This document shows positions 27,314 through 35,034 of a DNA stretch of 43,083 nucleotides, in pieces (positions within the stretch are counted from its first letter, which is position 1; each line of letters opens with the position of its first letter). Below the pieces are notes generated by a model. That model searched no databases and had not been told where the DNA came from. It worked only from the letters and a program-made list of their open reading frames with translations. Source of the stretch: Peptococcaceae bacterium (GTDB lineage: Bacteria > Bacillota > Desulfitobacteriia > Desulfitobacteriales > Syntrophobotulaceae); assembly GCA_012517475.1 (NCBI GenBank), contig JAAYUV010000082.1, positions 1 to 43,083 on the forward strand. The letters run 5' to 3'. Made by a program: the position numbers and the translations under genes.

Positions 27314-28075
27314 ATGATTAGAAAAATTGTTGAAATAGACCAGGAAAAATGCAATGGCTGCGGGCTGTGTATTGATGCCTGTCACGAAGGAGCTTTACAA
27401 TTGGTGAACGGAAAAGCCGTTCTGTTAAGTGATGAATACTGCGACGGATTGGGGGACTGTTTGCCCGAGTGCCCGACAGATGCTATTCGGATTACCGAAA
27501 GGGAAGCTGTCGATTATAATGAGGAACTCGTTAAGAGTAAACAGCAAGCAAAGAAAGAGACTGCAATGAAGCAAGAAAGACGTACGGTTCCGGAAAGTCC
27601 ACGGGCGCATGCAGGTTGTTCCTGCCCGGGGACAAGATCTGCCGTGATCAAACCTGACACTCAGGTCGCTAAAACCGCTGAGAGGGATATGACAGAACGT
27701 CCCTCTGAATTGAGACAGTGGCCGATTCAGTTGAATCTGATCAACCCGCAGGCTTCCTATCTGCAAGGCGCCGATTTACTGATAGCAGCTGATTGTACCG
27801 CATACGCCTACGCGTCATTTCATGAAAGATTTATGAAGGATAGAATCACATTGATCGGATGTCCTAAACTGGATGATAATGATTATTATACTGAAAAGAT
27901 TGCCGAGATCCTGCAAAGAAATCATCCCCGCAGCATTAAAGTGGTCAGAATGGACGTACCCTGTTGCGGCGGAATTGTCAGAGCAGTGAAAGAAGCCATG
28001 CTGAAATCCGGAATAATTGTTCCCTATAGTGAGGTGACGGTTAATTCCCAAGGTCAGATTATCAACGAACAGTAA
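27314..28075 (+). CDS. 4Fe-4S ferredoxin-type protein with Cys-rich C-terminal domain
   Basis: 253 aa. The N-terminal ferredoxin domain has Cys 13, 16, 19 and 23 in a classical CxxCxxCxxxC. A variant second motif CDGLGDCLPECP has Cys 43, 49 and 53. A linker of low complexity follows (about 65-120, Lys/Gln/Glu-rich, with an isolated CSC). Then comes a C-terminal domain with four more conserved-looking Cys in AADCTAYAYA, LIGCPKLDD and DVPCCGGIV. Similar proteins occur widely in anaerobes without a settled function. Electron transfer or metal-cluster handling is likely. An AGGTG site precedes the ATG. Confidence 0.85.
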   Translation: MIRKIVEIDQEKCNGCGLCIDACHEGALQLVNGKAVLLSDEYCDGLGDCLPECPTDAIRITEREAVDYNEELVKSKQQAKKETAMKQERRTVPESPRAHAGCSCPGTRSAVIKPDTQVAKTAERDMTERPSELRQWPIQLNLINPQASYLQGADLLIAADCTAYAYASFHERFMKDRITLIGCPKLDDNDYYTEKIAEILQRNHPRSIKVVRMDVPCCGGIVRAVKEAMLKSGIIVPYSEVTVNSQGQIINEQ

Positions 28076-28197
28076 TAGATGGTGAAGTAAACCAGTACCT
28101 TGTTAACCCTAAAATTATAATATAATGGCGAGCAGATTTCTTTTAAGACAAGGCGGAGGATTGAGTTTGAATAATTCAATAGAGAGAAGGGATAATA

Positions 28198-28245
28198 TGA
28201 AAGCGGCAGTAAATCAAGACCTCTGTATAGGATGCGGGTGTTAGA
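28198..28245 (+). pseudogene. Ferredoxin N-terminal stub
   Basis: ATG-initiated frame MKAAVNQDLCIGCGC followed by TAG. The sequence is the start of a small clostridial ferredoxin up to the third cluster Cys, then stops. No ferredoxin-like sequence continues in any frame downstream. An AGAAGGGATA lies upstream, and an in-frame TTG at 28168 with CGGAGG may be the older start. A TATAATATAATGG stretch near 28116-28128 may be its promoter. I read it as a gene cut by deletion. The rest of 28076-28343 holds nothing else I can name. Confidence 0.65.
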
Positions 28246-28400
28246 TTATTTGAAACAGAATAGAGAAGAAAGAAAATCGGAAAGAAATAAATGAAATAAA
28301 CGCCGGGGGCAAGGGAAAAAACCTCGCTATTGAGAATTATTTATTGTTTTGTGTAATATTACGGACGCAAATGCCGAAAAATGAATGGAGTGGTTGCGGT

Positions 28401-28889
28401 TTGAGTTATCAACAATCCGATATTTTGGAGATCCAGCCTTTGATAGAACAGATCTTCCCCAATTTGCGGGAAGTGCCTGTTAATTCCATTTCATCTTCCA
28501 TCTTTGGGACAGGAGAACAAAAAAAAATATATTTACTGATCGTAGGTGATGATCGTTTAATAAACCCATTTCTGGCAGATACTCAGGATGAGGCTAAATC
28601 CAAGATCGTGACAATCGCCGAAAAGTGCCAGAACAAGATTAACTTTGATCTGATTATGGAGTTTAATTTTTATTTCAGGAGGGGAGGAAAGGGTACTTTT
28701 AAAGTAATGTTTCAGGCCGCACATCCGGAAATGCAGAAACAATATGTTCAGGCTTTAAAAGAAATTGAGAACTTATGTTTCATCATTGCGGATCAGGAAA
28801 GAAACATTCGTAAAGTATTCGAAGTTGACTGGTATTATTATAAGAATAAAAAGGTTATCGAAAAAATTGTTACGGCTAACGGATATTAA
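28401..28889 (+). CDS. Hypothetical protein, about 162 aa
   Basis: I do not recognise this family. The frame is open from 28344, but a TTG at 28401 (LSYQQSDILEIQPLIEQIF) has a GGAGTGG site at good spacing and starts where the sequence begins to look protein-like. It is soluble with alternating beta and helix pattern: KKIYLLIVGDDRL, FDLIMEFNFYFRRGGKGTFK and a charged helix MQKQYVQALKEIENL. It has an unusual aromatic end, DWYYYKNKKVIEK. It is followed by its own terminator. Confidence 0.65.
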   Translation: MSYQQSDILEIQPLIEQIFPNLREVPVNSISSSIFGTGEQKKIYLLIVGDDRLINPFLADTQDEAKSKIVTIAEKCQNKINFDLIMEFNFYFRRGGKGTFKVMFQAAHPEMQKQYVQALKEIENLCFIIADQERNIRKVFEVDWYYYKNKKVIEKIVTANGY

Positions 28890-28936
28890 TATTGGAATGA
28901 TATTGATGAACTAATTTATGATTCAAAGAGTTTTTT

Positions 28937-28961
28937 AGTCTCCGATATGGAGGCTTTTTTT
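28937..28961 (+). terminator. Intrinsic terminator
   Basis: AGTCTCC-GATAT-GGAGGCT (one G-T pair) followed by seven T's. Confidence 0.8.
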
Positions 28962-29005
28962 CTTTGCAGTTTGAAGTAGTTTTTCATTTTTTTCCGTCTA
29001 TAAGG

Positions 29006-29285
29006 ATGAAGGAAAGGAGGGGAATAAAGATAGACCATGAGACGATTGTTCGAATGGCATTACGTGGCGATCAAGATGCCTTTCGATCCTTAGTGGAAGA
29101 ATACAAAAGCTTAGTTTATGTTATTTGTCTTAAGGCCGTTCTCGATCCATACGAAGCAGAGAATTTAATAGAGCAGCAAGCAGATCGCCATTGAGGAGAA
29201 AATCAGTGTTAGAACGGTGGAAACCAGATTATACCGCGGGAAGAAGATCCTAAGAAAATGCTTTGCGGAGTTGAGCAAAACATGA
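29006..29285 (+). pseudogene. ECF sigma factor with internal deletion
   Basis: The first part (29006-29194) encodes an ECF sigma region 2 start: DHETIVRMALRGDQDAFRSL, VYVICLKAVLDPYEAENL, then a stop. The other end survives in the next frame at 29178-29285: KQIAIEEKISVRTVETRLYR, GKKILRK, then TGA. This is the helix-turn-helix of region 4.2. The middle (rest of region 2, linker and first half of region 4, roughly 80-90 codons) is missing and the frame is shifted. An AAGGAGG lies at 29014-29020 with an in-frame ATA at 29024 and 29030, so the original start may also be damaged. The terminal TGA overlaps the anti-sigma ATG as ATGA, showing the old operon layout. Confidence 0.85.
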
Positions 29286-29725
29286 ATAGGAAAAGGAAGA
29301 ATGCTCACTGCTATAAGCCGGAAGAATGGAAGGCGTACCAAGCAGGAGTTTTAGGAGAATCTGAACAAATCAAAATGGAAGAGCATCTCCTCGTTTGTAT
29401 GGAGTGTATGGAAACTTACCTAAGTCTCATCGAGGAGTCTGTATTTGATGAGAACTTACCGAAGCTAAGTGAAGAATTTACAGAAAAATTATTGTCTTCT
29501 ATAGAAAATGAAAAAAGATGGCAAAAAGCATCTGTTCCGGTCAGAAACATTTCGTCGGGCAAAAAGGATAAGGAAGTGAGGAATAACAGGGTAAACTTGT
29601 TCGTGTCCTATTGTGCTGCAGCCGGTATAGCGATGTTCTTCTGGGTGGGAGGATATTTTGATCATTTAGCGGGAGTTTTGACCAAAGAGGCAGAGAACTG
29701 TCATGCAAAAGGTGTCTCATCCTGA
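29282..29725 (+). CDS. Zinc-finger anti-sigma factor, partner of the broken sigma factor
   Basis: 147 aa starting MNRKRKNAHCYKPEEWKAYQ. The ZAS motif Hx3Cx2C is present (EEHLLVCMECMETYL), typical of anti-sigma factors that hold an ECF sigma factor at the membrane. One transmembrane segment lies near 103-120 (NLFVSYCAAAGIAMFFWVGG), with a short external tail. I start at 29282, where ATGA overlaps the sigma remnant, and not at the upstream in-frame ATG at 29258. With its sigma factor destroyed, this gene has lost its evident cognate target unless it binds another sigma factor. Confidence 0.82.
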   Translation: MNRKRKNAHCYKPEEWKAYQAGVLGESEQIKMEEHLLVCMECMETYLSLIEESVFDENLPKLSEEFTEKLLSSIENEKRWQKASVPVRNISSGKKDKEVRNNRVNLFVSYCAAAGIAMFFWVGGYFDHLAGVLTKEAENCHAKGVSS

Positions 29726-29915
29726 CAAATACCAAGAGGTTGCGTTTTTCGGTGATTTCTTTAAAAAGGATCAATTCTCGGGTAAGGCAGGTAAATATAT
29801 TGGTATTGGGCTTATTGCTGTAGGATGTATCATGATCTTTGACAAGATCGTCATTCCCCAGAGTTTCTATGGGTTTCATGCTGATAGCAACCGGGATCCT
29901 GCTTTTAATGAGTGA
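29703..29915 (+). CDS. Small membrane protein fragment (DUF5668-like), probably truncated
   Basis: 70 codons: MQKVSHPDKYQEVAFFGDFF, a basic stretch, then one hydrophobic helix (KYIGIGLIAVGCIMIFDKIV) of the kind found in LiaF/DUF5668 proteins. The last 20 or so residues lie over the start of the next gene in another frame and look random. It overlaps the anti-sigma gene by 23 bases and the following gene by 77. I suspect a deletion that removed the end of this gene and the original start of the next one. Confidence 0.45.
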   Translation: MQKVSHPDKYQEVAFFGDFFKKDQFSGKAGKYIGIGLIAVGCIMIFDKIVIPQSFYGFHADSNRDPAFNE

Positions 29916-30921
29916 ATTGCAGGGGTTTAACGGGGCGGGACTGGTGCTTCGCTGGTGGCCTGTAATCCTTATTGTTTTAGGAATAGAGATCTTAGTCTAT
30001 ATTGTTTTTTCGCATGAAGAACAGCCTAAAATAAAATTTGACGGATTAAGCATATTTCTGGTAATTTTGCTGATTTTAATCAGCTCCGGGGCATATGCGG
30101 CAAGCTCCTTTATGAAAAGTGATTTCTCCAAAGGGTTTTTCAGTCAGATCGGCTATTTCAAAAACGAGTCCATCATTAATAAAACCTTTGATATTGATGC
30201 GGCAAAAGTAAAGAAGCTGCAGGTCAATAACAGCAGGGGACAGGTTCAGATCGACCGATACAGCGGGGATAAGATCAAAGTGGATGCAGCGATCATCATC
30301 AAAAATAATGATGAAGAAAAAGCAGTTAAACTTGCTCAGGATTTAGTAGAAGTAACAGAAGGAGAAACTCTGACCTTAAATACCAGAAGTATAAGTGTTT
30401 TAGAAGATAACCGGGGTTATCAGTTTACGGTCAATTATGCCGTAAAAGTACCAAAAGAACTTACTTTTGAAATCAACAACAAATTTGGTGAAATCAATCT
30501 GGAGAATCTTACCGGCAACATTTTTGTAAACGGGAAATTTGGGAAAATAGAAGTGGCGAACATTCAGGGGGATGCCCGGATTGAAAACGCCTTCGGGGAA
30601 ACAAAAGTCCAAAATGTCACTGGTAAGGTGGCGATAGACAATGAACAGGGAGAGATCTTCTACGCCAGTAAGCAAGCAGCGAGGAATGATATTACGCTGA
30701 ATTGTAAGATGGGAGGGATTAATGTAGAATTGCCGCGTGATCAGCAAGGGACATTTAATCTCTACACAAAGTTCGGAAACATCAATTTTAAGGGATTTAG
30801 CTCGGAACTCCCAATACAAAAGGATAATACCAAACAGGAAATGAAAGGCATCATCGGGACGGCATCTCCCCAGATTACAGTGAATGCGGATCATGGCGAA
30901 ATTTCCCTGAGCGGTAAGTAG
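29839..30921 (+). CDS. Membrane-anchored DUF4097-type protein
   Basis: About 350-360 aa. Two N-terminal helices (MGFMLIATGILLLMSEL and WWPVILIVLGIEILVYIVF) have the DUF5668/LiaF look. A third membrane helix (LSIFLVILLILISSGAY) precedes a long extracytoplasmic domain. The latter repeats short beta-rungs (FGEINLENLTGNI, FGKIEVANIQGDARI, FGETKVQNVTGKV, FGNINFKGF), as in DUF4097 right-handed beta-helix proteins. Such genes commonly accompany ECF sigma/anti-sigma pairs or cell-envelope stress operons. The start is unclear: TTG at 29839 or ATG at 29869, neither with a good ribosome site. Confidence 0.8.
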   Translation: MTRSSFPRVSMGFMLIATGILLLMSELQGFNGAGLVLRWWPVILIVLGIEILVYIVFSHEEQPKIKFDGLSIFLVILLILISSGAYAASSFMKSDFSKGFFSQIGYFKNESIINKTFDIDAAKVKKLQVNNSRGQVQIDRYSGDKIKVDAAIIIKNNDEEKAVKLAQDLVEVTEGETLTLNTRSISVLEDNRGYQFTVNYAVKVPKELTFEINNKFGEINLENLTGNIFVNGKFGKIEVANIQGDARIENAFGETKVQNVTGKVAIDNEQGEIFYASKQAARNDITLNCKMGGINVELPRDQQGTFNLYTKFGNINFKGFSSELPIQKDNTKQEMKGIIGTASPQITVNADHGEISLSGK

Positions 30922-30938
30922 AATATTGTATGCTAAAC

Positions 30939-30985
30939 AAGCTCACTGTCTTATACCTTTCGTAAAAAGACATGTTGAGCTTTTT
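30939..30985 (+). terminator. Intrinsic terminator
   Basis: AAGCTCA (30939-30945) pairs with TGAGCTT (from about 30976), and inner GTCTT pairs with AAGAC. A T-run follows. It ends the anti-sigma/DUF4097 unit before the convergent dipeptidase gene. Confidence 0.7.
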
Positions 30986-31010
30986 AATTCTAAACCTAAA
31001 ACAATTTTAT

Positions 31011-32411
31011 TTATTGTCCGTTATCAGCTAAAGCTTTCAGTGCCAGAGCATAGATTTCCGTGCACCGGAGCAGGTGGTCTATTCCGACGTATTCATCCGG
31101 CTGGTGCTCAACTTTGGGCATCCCCGGAAAAGTTGGACCGAAGGCGACTGCTTTCTTAAAAGCTTTGGAAAATGTAGTGCCGCCCATTCCTAATGGTTTT
31201 GCATCTTTTTCCCCTGTGAAATTTTTATATACATCCAGCAGTTTCTTAATGTTAGGGTCATCCTCGGGGAAACTCAGAGATTCAAGGGAATCGATAAAGG
31301 TAAGTTTCCCATGAAATGCTTTGAAAGCTTTCTCAACTTTTGGTTTGACGGAGTCAAGCTTCTCCTTAGCCGGGAAGCGGATATCTATCCTTAGGGTAAC
31401 ATTTTTTTCGTCCATAAAAATATATCCGGGGCTTACCGTAAGTTTTCCCGTTAGTTCGTCTTCCAGTTGAAGCCCAAGGGATTCCCCGAAAAATTCCATG
31501 CCGATTCGGCTGCAATAGGTTTGGATGAAATCCTTCTGCTGTCCATCAAGATCCAAATCGTTTAAAAACTTCATGAGCTGTGAAATCGCATTTTGACCTT
31601 CATTACAGATAAAAGCATGGGCGGATTTTCCCTTGGATATGAGTTTTAAGTCCGGCGAATCTTCGTTCAGACTAATATCATATCCTGTTTGTTTTTTGAA
31701 GCGCTCAAGTTTTTCTGATACGGTCTGCTTATGATTACTATTTATCCGGAGGGTGGCTTCGCAGTAATCAGGAACAATATTAAGGGACTCCCCTCCCCCT
31801 TTTATCTCATAAACCATCGTTCCGATACCCTTTTTTGAAGAGTCCGGGTCCAGTTCTTTCCGTACTTCTAACCACAACAATCCTTTTTCTGCTATGACAA
31901 CCGGGAATTTTGAATCCGGAACAAAGGAAAAGTCCGGTTCAGTTATCTCCTGCAAAAGTTTTGGAGTGGTATTCCAAACACCTTCTTCATCAATGCCGAT
32001 AATAATCTGAATCTTACAGTCTGGTTGGATTCCTGAGTCCTTGAAGGCTTTTAAAGCATACAGCGCGGAAAGTGCCGGGCCTTTATCATCAATTGCTCCC
32101 CGCCCAAAAATTTTTTGATCTTCAATCAGGCCTTCAAAAGGAGGGACCCGCCAACCGCTTCCCTCTGGAACGGTGTCAAGGTGAACAATCATACCAAAGG
32201 TGCTTTTTCCTTCCCCATATTCAATCAGCCCGCCCAGACTATTTACATTGCTGGTTTTAAAGCCCATCTTTTGTCCTTTATCTAAGTAAAACTCCAAGGC
32301 CTTTCTCGTTCCTTCCTGGTCCCCTGAAATACTTTTAATCCGGATACAGTCTTGTACAGCTTGAATTAAATCTTCTTTATAGGAATTGATGATGTCTTTT
32401 AACTCTTTCAT
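31011..32411 (-). CDS. Dipeptidase PepV-type (M20 metallopeptidase)
   Basis: 466 aa, the length of PepV/Sapep enzymes that hydrolyse dipeptides in the cytoplasm with two zinc or manganese ions. Metal and catalytic residues are visible in FGMIVHLDTVPEG (His, catalytic Asp), FGRGAIDDKGP (bridging Asp), IIIGIDEEGVW (catalytic Glu pair) and FVPDSKFPVV. A C-terminal GGTTFSKAFKKAVAFGP is also typical. A GGAGG site lies ahead of the ATG. The gene stands alone. Its substrate range cannot be deduced by eye. Confidence 0.92.
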   Translation of the reverse strand: MKELKDIINSYKEDLIQAVQDCIRIKSISGDQEGTRKALEFYLDKGQKMGFKTSNVNSLGGLIEYGEGKSTFGMIVHLDTVPEGSGWRVPPFEGLIEDQKIFGRGAIDDKGPALSALYALKAFKDSGIQPDCKIQIIIGIDEEGVWNTTPKLLQEITEPDFSFVPDSKFPVVIAEKGLLWLEVRKELDPDSSKKGIGTMVYEIKGGGESLNIVPDYCEATLRINSNHKQTVSEKLERFKKQTGYDISLNEDSPDLKLISKGKSAHAFICNEGQNAISQLMKFLNDLDLDGQQKDFIQTYCSRIGMEFFGESLGLQLEDELTGKLTVSPGYIFMDEKNVTLRIDIRFPAKEKLDSVKPKVEKAFKAFHGKLTFIDSLESLSFPEDDPNIKKLLDVYKNFTGEKDAKPLGMGGTTFSKAFKKAVAFGPTFPGMPKVEHQPDEYVGIDHLLRCTEIYALALKALADNGQ

Positions 32412-33735: not shown

Positions 33736-34104
33736 ATGAATTTCGATAATACAGCTCCAATTTATATTCAAATTATGAATTTGATTAAAAAAGATATTAT
33801 CCTTGGAAGGATGCAGTTGGGTGAAAAGCTGCTCTCAACAAGGGAGTATGCCCAAAATCTGAAGGTAAATCCCAATACCATGGCAAGGGTCTTCAATGAG
33901 CTGGAAAGAGAAGGAGTAACTTTTACCAAACGAGGAGTTGGGACTTTTATTACAGAATCGGAAGAGAAGGTGGAAAGGTTGAAAAAGGAAATGGCAGAAG
34001 ACATTGTAAGAAACTTTATTGAAGGAATGTTAGAATTGGGGTTTAATTTCAACGATATGATCGAATTGATAAAACATCGCCTGGAGAAGGAGGCTGTCCA
34101 ATGA
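33736..34104 (+). CDS. GntR family regulator, YtrA-type
   Basis: 122 aa, the short form of GntR regulators: a winged-helix N-terminus and a brief C-terminal helix pair without a ligand domain. It starts MNFDNTAPIYIQIMNLIKKD, has the helix-turn-helix around LLSTREYAQNLKVNPNTMAR, and has the wing EREGVTFTKRGVGTFI. YtrA-type regulators normally sit at the head of an ABC transporter operon and repress it. That layout is kept here, with its stop overlapping the ATPase ATG by four bases. The regulator itself looks intact although both downstream transporter genes are broken. Confidence 0.92.
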   Translation: MNFDNTAPIYIQIMNLIKKDIILGRMQLGEKLLSTREYAQNLKVNPNTMARVFNELEREGVTFTKRGVGTFITESEEKVERLKKEMAEDIVRNFIEGMLELGFNFNDMIELIKHRLEKEAVQ

Positions 34105-34798
34105 CAACCGTATTAAAAGTCGAGAACTTAAGCAAAGGTTTTTTTCGCAATAAGGCTCTTGACCACCTTAACCTTGAAATAGAAAAAGGGAAGGTCTATG
34201 GGATCTTGGCCCTAATGGAAGCGGAAAAACTACTTTCTTTAAAATTCTGACCGGATTGGTTAAACCGTCATCCGGAAGAGTATTGATTAACGGGTCGGAA
34301 GTCAGTTCCCGGACCAAAAAATATACGGCATATATGCCTACAGAAGATTATCTTTTCAATTGGATGAAAATTAATAAAATCATTAATTTTTTCGATGACG
34401 TGTATGAAGATTTTGACAGGAACAAAGCCTTGGAATTTTTGAACTTTATGCAGCTAACTGAGGATATGAAAATCAGTTCACTTTCAACCGGGATGAAGGC
34501 CAGGCTTAAACTTGTCTTAACGATGGCGCGGCGAGTTGACCTTTATCTTTTGGATGAACCGCTTAACGGAATAGATCTTATATCCAGGGAGAGGATTATT
34601 CAAATGATTATCTCTTCGCTTAGTGAGGAGAGTACAATGCTTATTTCCAGTCACTTGGTCAATGAACTAGAGACCATTTTGGATGAAATTGTTTTTTGGG
34701 ATAAGGGGAGTGTGCTGCTTTCCGGAAATGCAGAAAAATTCAGGATAGAAAAAGGATGCTCCATAGAGGAGTTATATAAGGAGGTTTATCATGGGTAA
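34101..34798 (+). pseudogene. ABC transporter ATPase with a one-base frameshift in Walker A
   Basis: The frame opens at ATG 34101 (MTTVLKVENLSKGFF), overlapping the GntR stop, and reads normally to KVYGIL near 34208. There GCCCTAATGG should read GGCCCTAATGG: one G is missing. The frame then ends at a stop at 34248-34250. In the shifted frame the Walker A GPNGSGKTTFFKILTGL and everything after it are intact. This includes the signature LSTGMKARLKLVLTMAR, Walker B DLYLLDEPLNGID and the H-loop LISSHLVNELE. As read, no complete ATPase is made. It could be a real lesion or a base-calling error; the broken permease next to it favours a real loss of function. Confidence 0.85.
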
Positions 34799-35034
34799 TC
34801 TCATAAAATATGAGTTCATCAGAAAATGGCGGACCCTGTGTGTTTTTTTGGCAATTATTTTAGGAATGAATGCAGTTGTCATCTATGAACTGCGCTCGGG
34901 TGTTAATTCTTATTATTCAAAATGGAACTATTCAATATTCACATTTCGCAGTCTATATTCTTCTTCAGATATTAATTGGGTTGTGCTGGTTTCTTCTTTC
35001 CGCTTATTTATTGGATAGAAAAATTGATTTATAA
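34791..35034 (+). pseudogene. ABC-2 type permease reduced to its ends
   Basis: ATG 34791 with AAGGAGG opens MGNLIKYEFIRKWRTLCVFL and a first membrane helix (FLAIILGMNAVVIYEL), then runs to a stop at 35016-35018. In another frame the preceding bases read LCWFLLSAYLLDRKIDL and stop at 35034, the typical last helix and tail of ABC-2 permeases. The hundreds of residues expected between are missing. The start overlaps the ATPase end by eight bases. Confidence 0.75.

Follow-up and report, generated by a model that had tools for sequence, protein, structure and literature searches.

The locus examined here raises the question of what has become of an ECF sigma factor gene that is reduced to its two ends while the gene of its anti-sigma factor still follows directly behind: has the sigma factor alone been discarded beside a healthy anti-sigma factor, or is its gene one casualty among several? 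The window, meaning the whole stretch of 43,083 nucleotides analysed from a Peptococcaceae bacterium, was compared with 24 genomes besides its own, of which 12, all from the same family, carry the anti-sigma gene. The locus is best understood as a dispensable, self-activated ECF sigma operon that is being lost through several separate internal deletions (probability about 0.86). The sigma gene itself comprises the following pieces.

29030 to 29169 (end approximate), plus strand: remnant of sigma region 2, located by tblastn from relatives
29165 to 29171, no strand assigned: junction of the sigma deletion, net ~293 nt lost relative to G002
29172 to 29285, plus strand: remnant of sigma region 4.2 with the stop codon (PF08281, 26.1 bits; 86% identity to G002 over 37 aa)

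Consistent with the initial annotation, which had described sigma ends in two frames with the middle lost, the regions 2 and 4.2 are read in different frames and the intervening part is absent, both from the sequence and by reference to the relatives' orthologs; tblastn with the intact relatives' sigma factors returns two matches in the window, whose adjacent ends lie at 29172-29176. Alignment to related sigma genes, proposed there for sizing the deletion, places the loss of ~293 nt out of frame, judged from the aligned end points against G002 as the closest intact relative. In each of the 12 anti-sigma-bearing relatives the sigma frame runs without interruption over 181-186 codons, as read by three-frame translation (ORF listing made several of them look N-terminally broken). 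A programmed frameshift joining the two halves was considered and rejected, for ~97 codons are absent rather than shifted and the relatives have one open frame. The region 4.2 remnant taken alone exceeds the PF08281 cut-off of 25.7 bits, and in the genome scan it scores 23.3 bits, under the cut-off; PF04542 (region 2) gives no match to the window's sigma remnant at E<=1, the intact ortholog L006 reaching 58.7 bits vs a cut-off of 24. No full-length copy of the lost sigma factor was found elsewhere in the genome at E<=1e-20.

29282 to 29725, plus strand: anti-sigma ORF; zinc-finger N-domain and membrane segment present, conserved C-terminal tail gone

The coupling that the initial annotation had pointed out is kept, with the ATGA at 29282-29285 forming the overlap of sigma stop and anti-sigma start. 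Its description of the anti-sigma factor as intact does not stand. The frame is open and retains the N-terminal HxxxCxxC domain (HLLVCMEC in the alignment) together with the membrane segment, and the Pfam score for zf-HC2 is 19.2 vs a cut-off of 22.2 (26.4 in L006). The C-terminal tail (..IQxGWTxK...xKKE), aligned in 12/12 relatives, is missing from the window, where the frame runs on into the remnant of the next gene, DUF6677. Disabling of the anti-sigma gene, which had been named as evidence against a sigma-only loss if seen in other strains, is found in part within the window's own genome. The N-domain, being open and motif-complete, may lend the remnant some residual function.

The damage extends to the rest of the operon, which in its complete form consists of sigma factor, membrane anti-sigma factor, DUF6677 membrane protein and LiaF/toastrack-like protein, preceded by a ferredoxin gene.

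27314 to 28075, plus strand: 4Fe-4S (Hdr-like) protein, intact, left flank; full-length matches in relatives, present in G001
28197 to 28244, plus strand: ferredoxin stump of 15 codons (MKAAVNQDLCIGCGC and stop), read from the sequence
28344 to 28889, plus strand: ORF of 181 aa, no match to the relatives' loci
29695 to 29700, no strand assigned: deletion junction between anti-sigma and DUF6677, net ~639 nt
29700 to 29861, plus strand: remnant of the DUF6677 membrane protein, 54 codons, 79-80% identity to G002
29861 to 29865, no strand assigned: deletion junction between DUF6677 and LiaF-like gene, net ~211 nt
29863 to 30921, plus strand: LiaF/toastrack-like protein minus its first 8 residues, from profile and relatives' matches
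31011 to 32411, minus strand: peptidase-like gene, intact, right flank; matched in relatives, present in G001

The larger of the two downstream deletions took the anti-sigma tail plus the first ~170 aa of the DUF6677 gene, and the smaller one the DUF6677 C-end plus the first 8 LiaF-like residues. At the place corresponding to the stump, L005, L006 and L017 have intact ferredoxins of 62-65 aa. The interval from the ferredoxin stump to the sigma promoter (28240-28960) has no match in the relatives' loci that were fetched, and the 181-aa ORF within it has no Pfam or NCBIfam match at E<=1. Disabling lesions here are thus paired with intact orthologs elsewhere, the pattern of a decaying operon. The remnants do not diverge clearly faster than the intact orthologs, which counts against erosion unless it is young; the deletions must therefore be recent.

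Comparison with the congener G001 reveals where the process leads. There, the Hdr-like and peptidase genes are ~76 nt apart, with no match between them for ferredoxin, sigma, anti-sigma, DUF6677 or LiaF, in an otherwise conserved order of pheA, Hdr-like, peptidase, 297-aa ORF, HD-GYP and purE; the assembly is 82% complete and the locus itself lies on a 207 kb contig. The same five-gene search was empty between the flanks in G004, G005 and G006 of genus g4, where the spacing is ~43-50 nt. Because the operon is absent from G001 and from G004-G006 while G007 and G008, of the same genus as the latter three, keep it, the presence/absence pattern indicates that it was probably lost at least twice. 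The window shows an intermediate of this loss, and G001 its end point.

34071 to 34910, plus strand: GntR-linked ABC operon, broken by comparison with relatives; missing from the G001 stretch

A second locus in the window shows the same fate. Its ABC ATPase carries a frameshift near 34206, only the first 73 of ~290 aa are left of the permease, and the syntenic stretch of G001 has no match for the GntR-ABC operon, so that both loci found broken in the window are absent from the congener. Among the window genes matched in the relatives' stretches, the aro, phe, pur and addA/addB genes have full-length matches. Given that anti-sigma, ferredoxin, DUF6677 and LiaF-like genes are cut as well, and that G001 lacks both broken loci, the operon is seen as midway through erosion. 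The erosion is most likely real, recent and operon-wide, rather than a loss of the sigma factor only beside a healthy anti-sigma factor.

28972 to 29002, plus strand: ECF-type promoter TGAAGTA-N16-CGTCTATA, retained; aligned with the relatives' sigma-upstream element and recovered by pattern search
29015 to 29022, plus strand: Shine-Dalgarno AGGAGGGG of the sigma gene, read from the sequence
29030 to 29032, plus strand: ATA codon at the sigma Met position; AUA or AUC in 12/12 relatives

In the 11 of 13 sequences measured, the ECF -10 element lies upstream of the Met-position codon and ends 22-27 nt from it, the two others, G002 and G021, having variant -10 elements. In a pattern search of 13 genomes, each of 8 relatives has 1 match, all at the ECF operon, G000 has 2 and 4/13 genomes have none; a reversed control pattern gives 0-4 matches per genome, which makes the pattern weak as evidence of a regulon. 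A further match in the window's genome, at L105 (contig C22, 36141-36171) with an 18-nt spacer, may be due to chance. A terminator-like stem lies at 28937-28955, just 5' of the ECF promoter, and 28060-31000 contains 14 matches to the sigma-70 consensus, none of which is strong, where shuffled sequence gives 7.9 (sd 2.9). From what is known of the protein families, the sigma factor of the intact relatives is likely to recognise the TGAMGTA...CGTCTATA promoter in front of the operon that encodes it, with the anti-sigma factor presumably tethering the sigma factor to the membrane. In the window's genome the sigma factor can no longer be made, and the ECF promoter is orphaned for that reason. We regard the truncated anti-sigma ORF as most probably inert, and either silent or expressed at a negligible level; this loss of expression, like the order of the deletion events, is what we infer from the lesions.

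The genome does encode other sigma factors of the type. Among the loci read (17 of the 30 matched in a region 4 genome scan), a further seven ECF-type sigma genes appear intact; their products share 24-28% identity with an intact ortholog of the lost sigma factor. A close paralog, such as the second ECF sigma with a matching region 2 that the initial annotation had suggested looking for, is not among them. A functional orphan anti-sigma factor left by selective sigma loss appears, from the sequence, to be a weak idea, because the protein is truncated, the one conserved promoter that can be recognised for the operon, of ECF type, has lost its sigma factor, and the other ECF sigma factors are this distant. 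A literature search for an orphan anti-sigma factor led to a publication whose main text did not yield the term. Among the three fates initially offered for the anti-sigma gene (inert, titrating a paralogous sigma factor, or expressed by read-through), "inert" fits best and titration is unlikely, given a genome without a close sigma paralog.

Erosion of the operon could additionally follow an order, in which the sigma gene breaks before the anti-sigma gene, as toxins do before antitoxins, because a free sigma factor is harmful. A second locus of the genome bears on this idea.

L032 1359 to 2117 (contig C30, ~4.6-5.4 kb): second gutted sigma and anti-sigma locus, from comparison with G010

Here, a region 2 stump and a region 4 lie in different frames ahead of an anti-sigma gene, roughly 85-90 residues are missing relative to the intact sigma version of G010, and the anti-sigma factor is full-length, aligning with G010 over 146-148 of 148 residues at 74-77%. 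The gene downstream of it, presumably DUF2953-like, appears frameshifted. The genome has 3 zf-HC2 matches, and 2/3 adjoin a gutted sigma gene followed by a retained anti-sigma N-domain (C115, C30); the converse, a broken anti-sigma beside a whole sigma, occurs in 0/12 of the relatives' operons. These are, however, two cases in one genome, and an equal chance of either gene going first gives 2/2 with a probability of 0.25; moreover, the anti-sigma gene on C115 is damaged too and does not tell the order. Ordered decay, which would add to the erosion reading, is for these reasons a tentative proposal that we hold to be rather doubtful. The second gutted sigma, located on another contig, also counts against the explanation that the deletions are assembly errors. 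A fragmented assembly of 115 contigs, with several clean junctions within ~1.7 kb and remnants without extra divergence, would invite that suspicion; the lesions found, however, fall only in loci wholly absent from the same-genus genome, while biosynthetic and housekeeping genes are whole, and we consider assembly error improbable. Least probable is that the remaining anti-sigma factor is kept to titrate another ECF sigma factor of the cell, for which an open frame with zinc-finger N-domain and seven candidate partners could be cited, but these partners are only distantly similar to the orthologous sigma, the C-terminal tail is gone, no sigma factor of the lost group is left for the promoter and the congener has dropped the whole operon.

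The erosion of the operon leaves in place the codon at which the sigma gene may start. The decaying copy of the window still keeps promoter, Shine-Dalgarno and AUA. At the sigma Met position (x-D-x-E-x-I/V), ATA is found in 10/12 and ATC in 2/12 relatives (L003-L013, L017), in most of them ~6 nt after a Shine-Dalgarno of the AGGAGGGG type; P is ~1e-4 for 10 ATA of 12 in a calculation that ignores relatedness. In seven of the 12 relatives, neither this codon nor the frame upstream of it offers an ATG, GTG or TTG (2 of the seven have an in-frame CTG), and the other 5, as well as the window, have an in-frame ATG near or overlapping the Shine-Dalgarno. A script that looked for canonical starts no more than 5 codons away from the aligned start came up empty in 11/12 relatives; in 4/12 it found none even as far as 10 residues into the protein. 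On the same two measures, 19 other window genes as controls gave 0/70 and 0/70 gene-by-genome cases and the three downstream operon genes gave 1/30 and 0/30, the control set being limited to matches of >=35% identity whose first aligned residue lies no more than 12 residues into the query. The relatives thus show a conserved non-canonical codon after a strong Shine-Dalgarno, with a canonical start absent at the expected place, as in SigR. In more distant homologs, namely G024 and eight family f2 genomes, the sigma start is ATG, TTG or unclear.

From these alignments, the conserved AUA/AUC looks like the non-canonical start of the sigma factor in the intact relatives. The family's infC genes point to the use of non-canonical starts in these cells, since ATT or ATC opens the 20 infC loci listed out of 23 (L113-L135). 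Other starts may nevertheless be considered. Translation may begin leaderless at the in-frame ATG overlapping or adjoining the Shine-Dalgarno in 5 relatives and the window, or inside region 2, where G011 and G012 have GTG and G011-G013 have TTG. One could also imagine that G002 and G003 start at an upstream ATG in another frame and then slip by -1 on GGGAAAA; between promoter and AUA, though, no ATG of any kind occurs in G011, G012 or G013. A literature search did not find an AUA-started sigma gene as the normal state; the available part of the literature describes an ATG-to-ATA mutant of E. coli rpoS and, for Listeria reporters, ATA as weaker than ATG and stronger than ATT (PMC13068326).

Regarding known systems, the operon shares features with several. 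SigW/RsiW-like ECF systems also pair the sigma factor with a zf-HC2 anti-sigma factor, and SigW is the best model for the region 2 remnant (25.5 bits vs a cut-off of 209); their downstream genes are different. The operon promoter, of the TGAMnn...CGTCTA type, appears to resemble those of SigW. The last gene combines a DUF4097 toastrack with LiaF-like membrane segments as in LiaF/LiaG (LiaG model, 42.9 bits vs a cut-off of 285), whereas the Lia operon belongs to a two-component system and the present one to a sigma/anti-sigma pair. The infC gene encodes IF3 and has an AUU start; it resembles the sigma gene here in that a strong Shine-Dalgarno precedes a non-canonical AUN start, and differs in being the IF3 gene rather than a sigma factor gene.

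The closest analogy is with SigR-RsrA. In Feeney et al. 2017 (PMC5472188), Streptomyces sigR is described as starting with GTC (GTT in 2/34 species) and as repressed by IF3, the system becoming constitutive when the start is changed to ATG, GTG or TTG. By that account, the two systems have in common the ATGA overlap of the sigma and zinc anti-sigma genes, a non-canonical sigma start (with an extended Shine-Dalgarno in sigR and a strong one here), a canonical start codon close by, within the Shine-Dalgarno, that misleads annotation, and an autoregulatory promoter. They differ in the start itself (GTC/GTT there vs AUA/AUC here) and in the anti-sigma factor, RsrA being a redox anti-sigma factor, whereas the one here is a membrane anti-sigma factor whose operon also includes DUF6677 and LiaF-like genes. 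The window's own sigma factor is moreover broken, and IF3 repression is established for sigR but a supposition here. We consider it reasonably probable that in this family of Firmicutes the whole ECF sigma group starts at AUA/AUC and that IF3 and initiation fidelity would limit the sigma factor relative to its anti-sigma factor, a second and independent case of the SigR principle, with an AUN codon like that of infC.

Lastly, gene decay itself is ordinary, but it has been caught here in a clear intermediate state, and the two gutted sigma genes provide a concrete, countable prediction as to which member of a sigma/anti-sigma pair decays first. Of greater value is the conserved AUA/AUC start of the intact relatives. 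If this start is real, the SigR result would not be peculiar to Streptomyces, the use of a poor start codon to limit the sigma factor against its anti-sigma factor would have evolved in another phylum, and the sigma genes of many genomes may be annotated from the wrong start.
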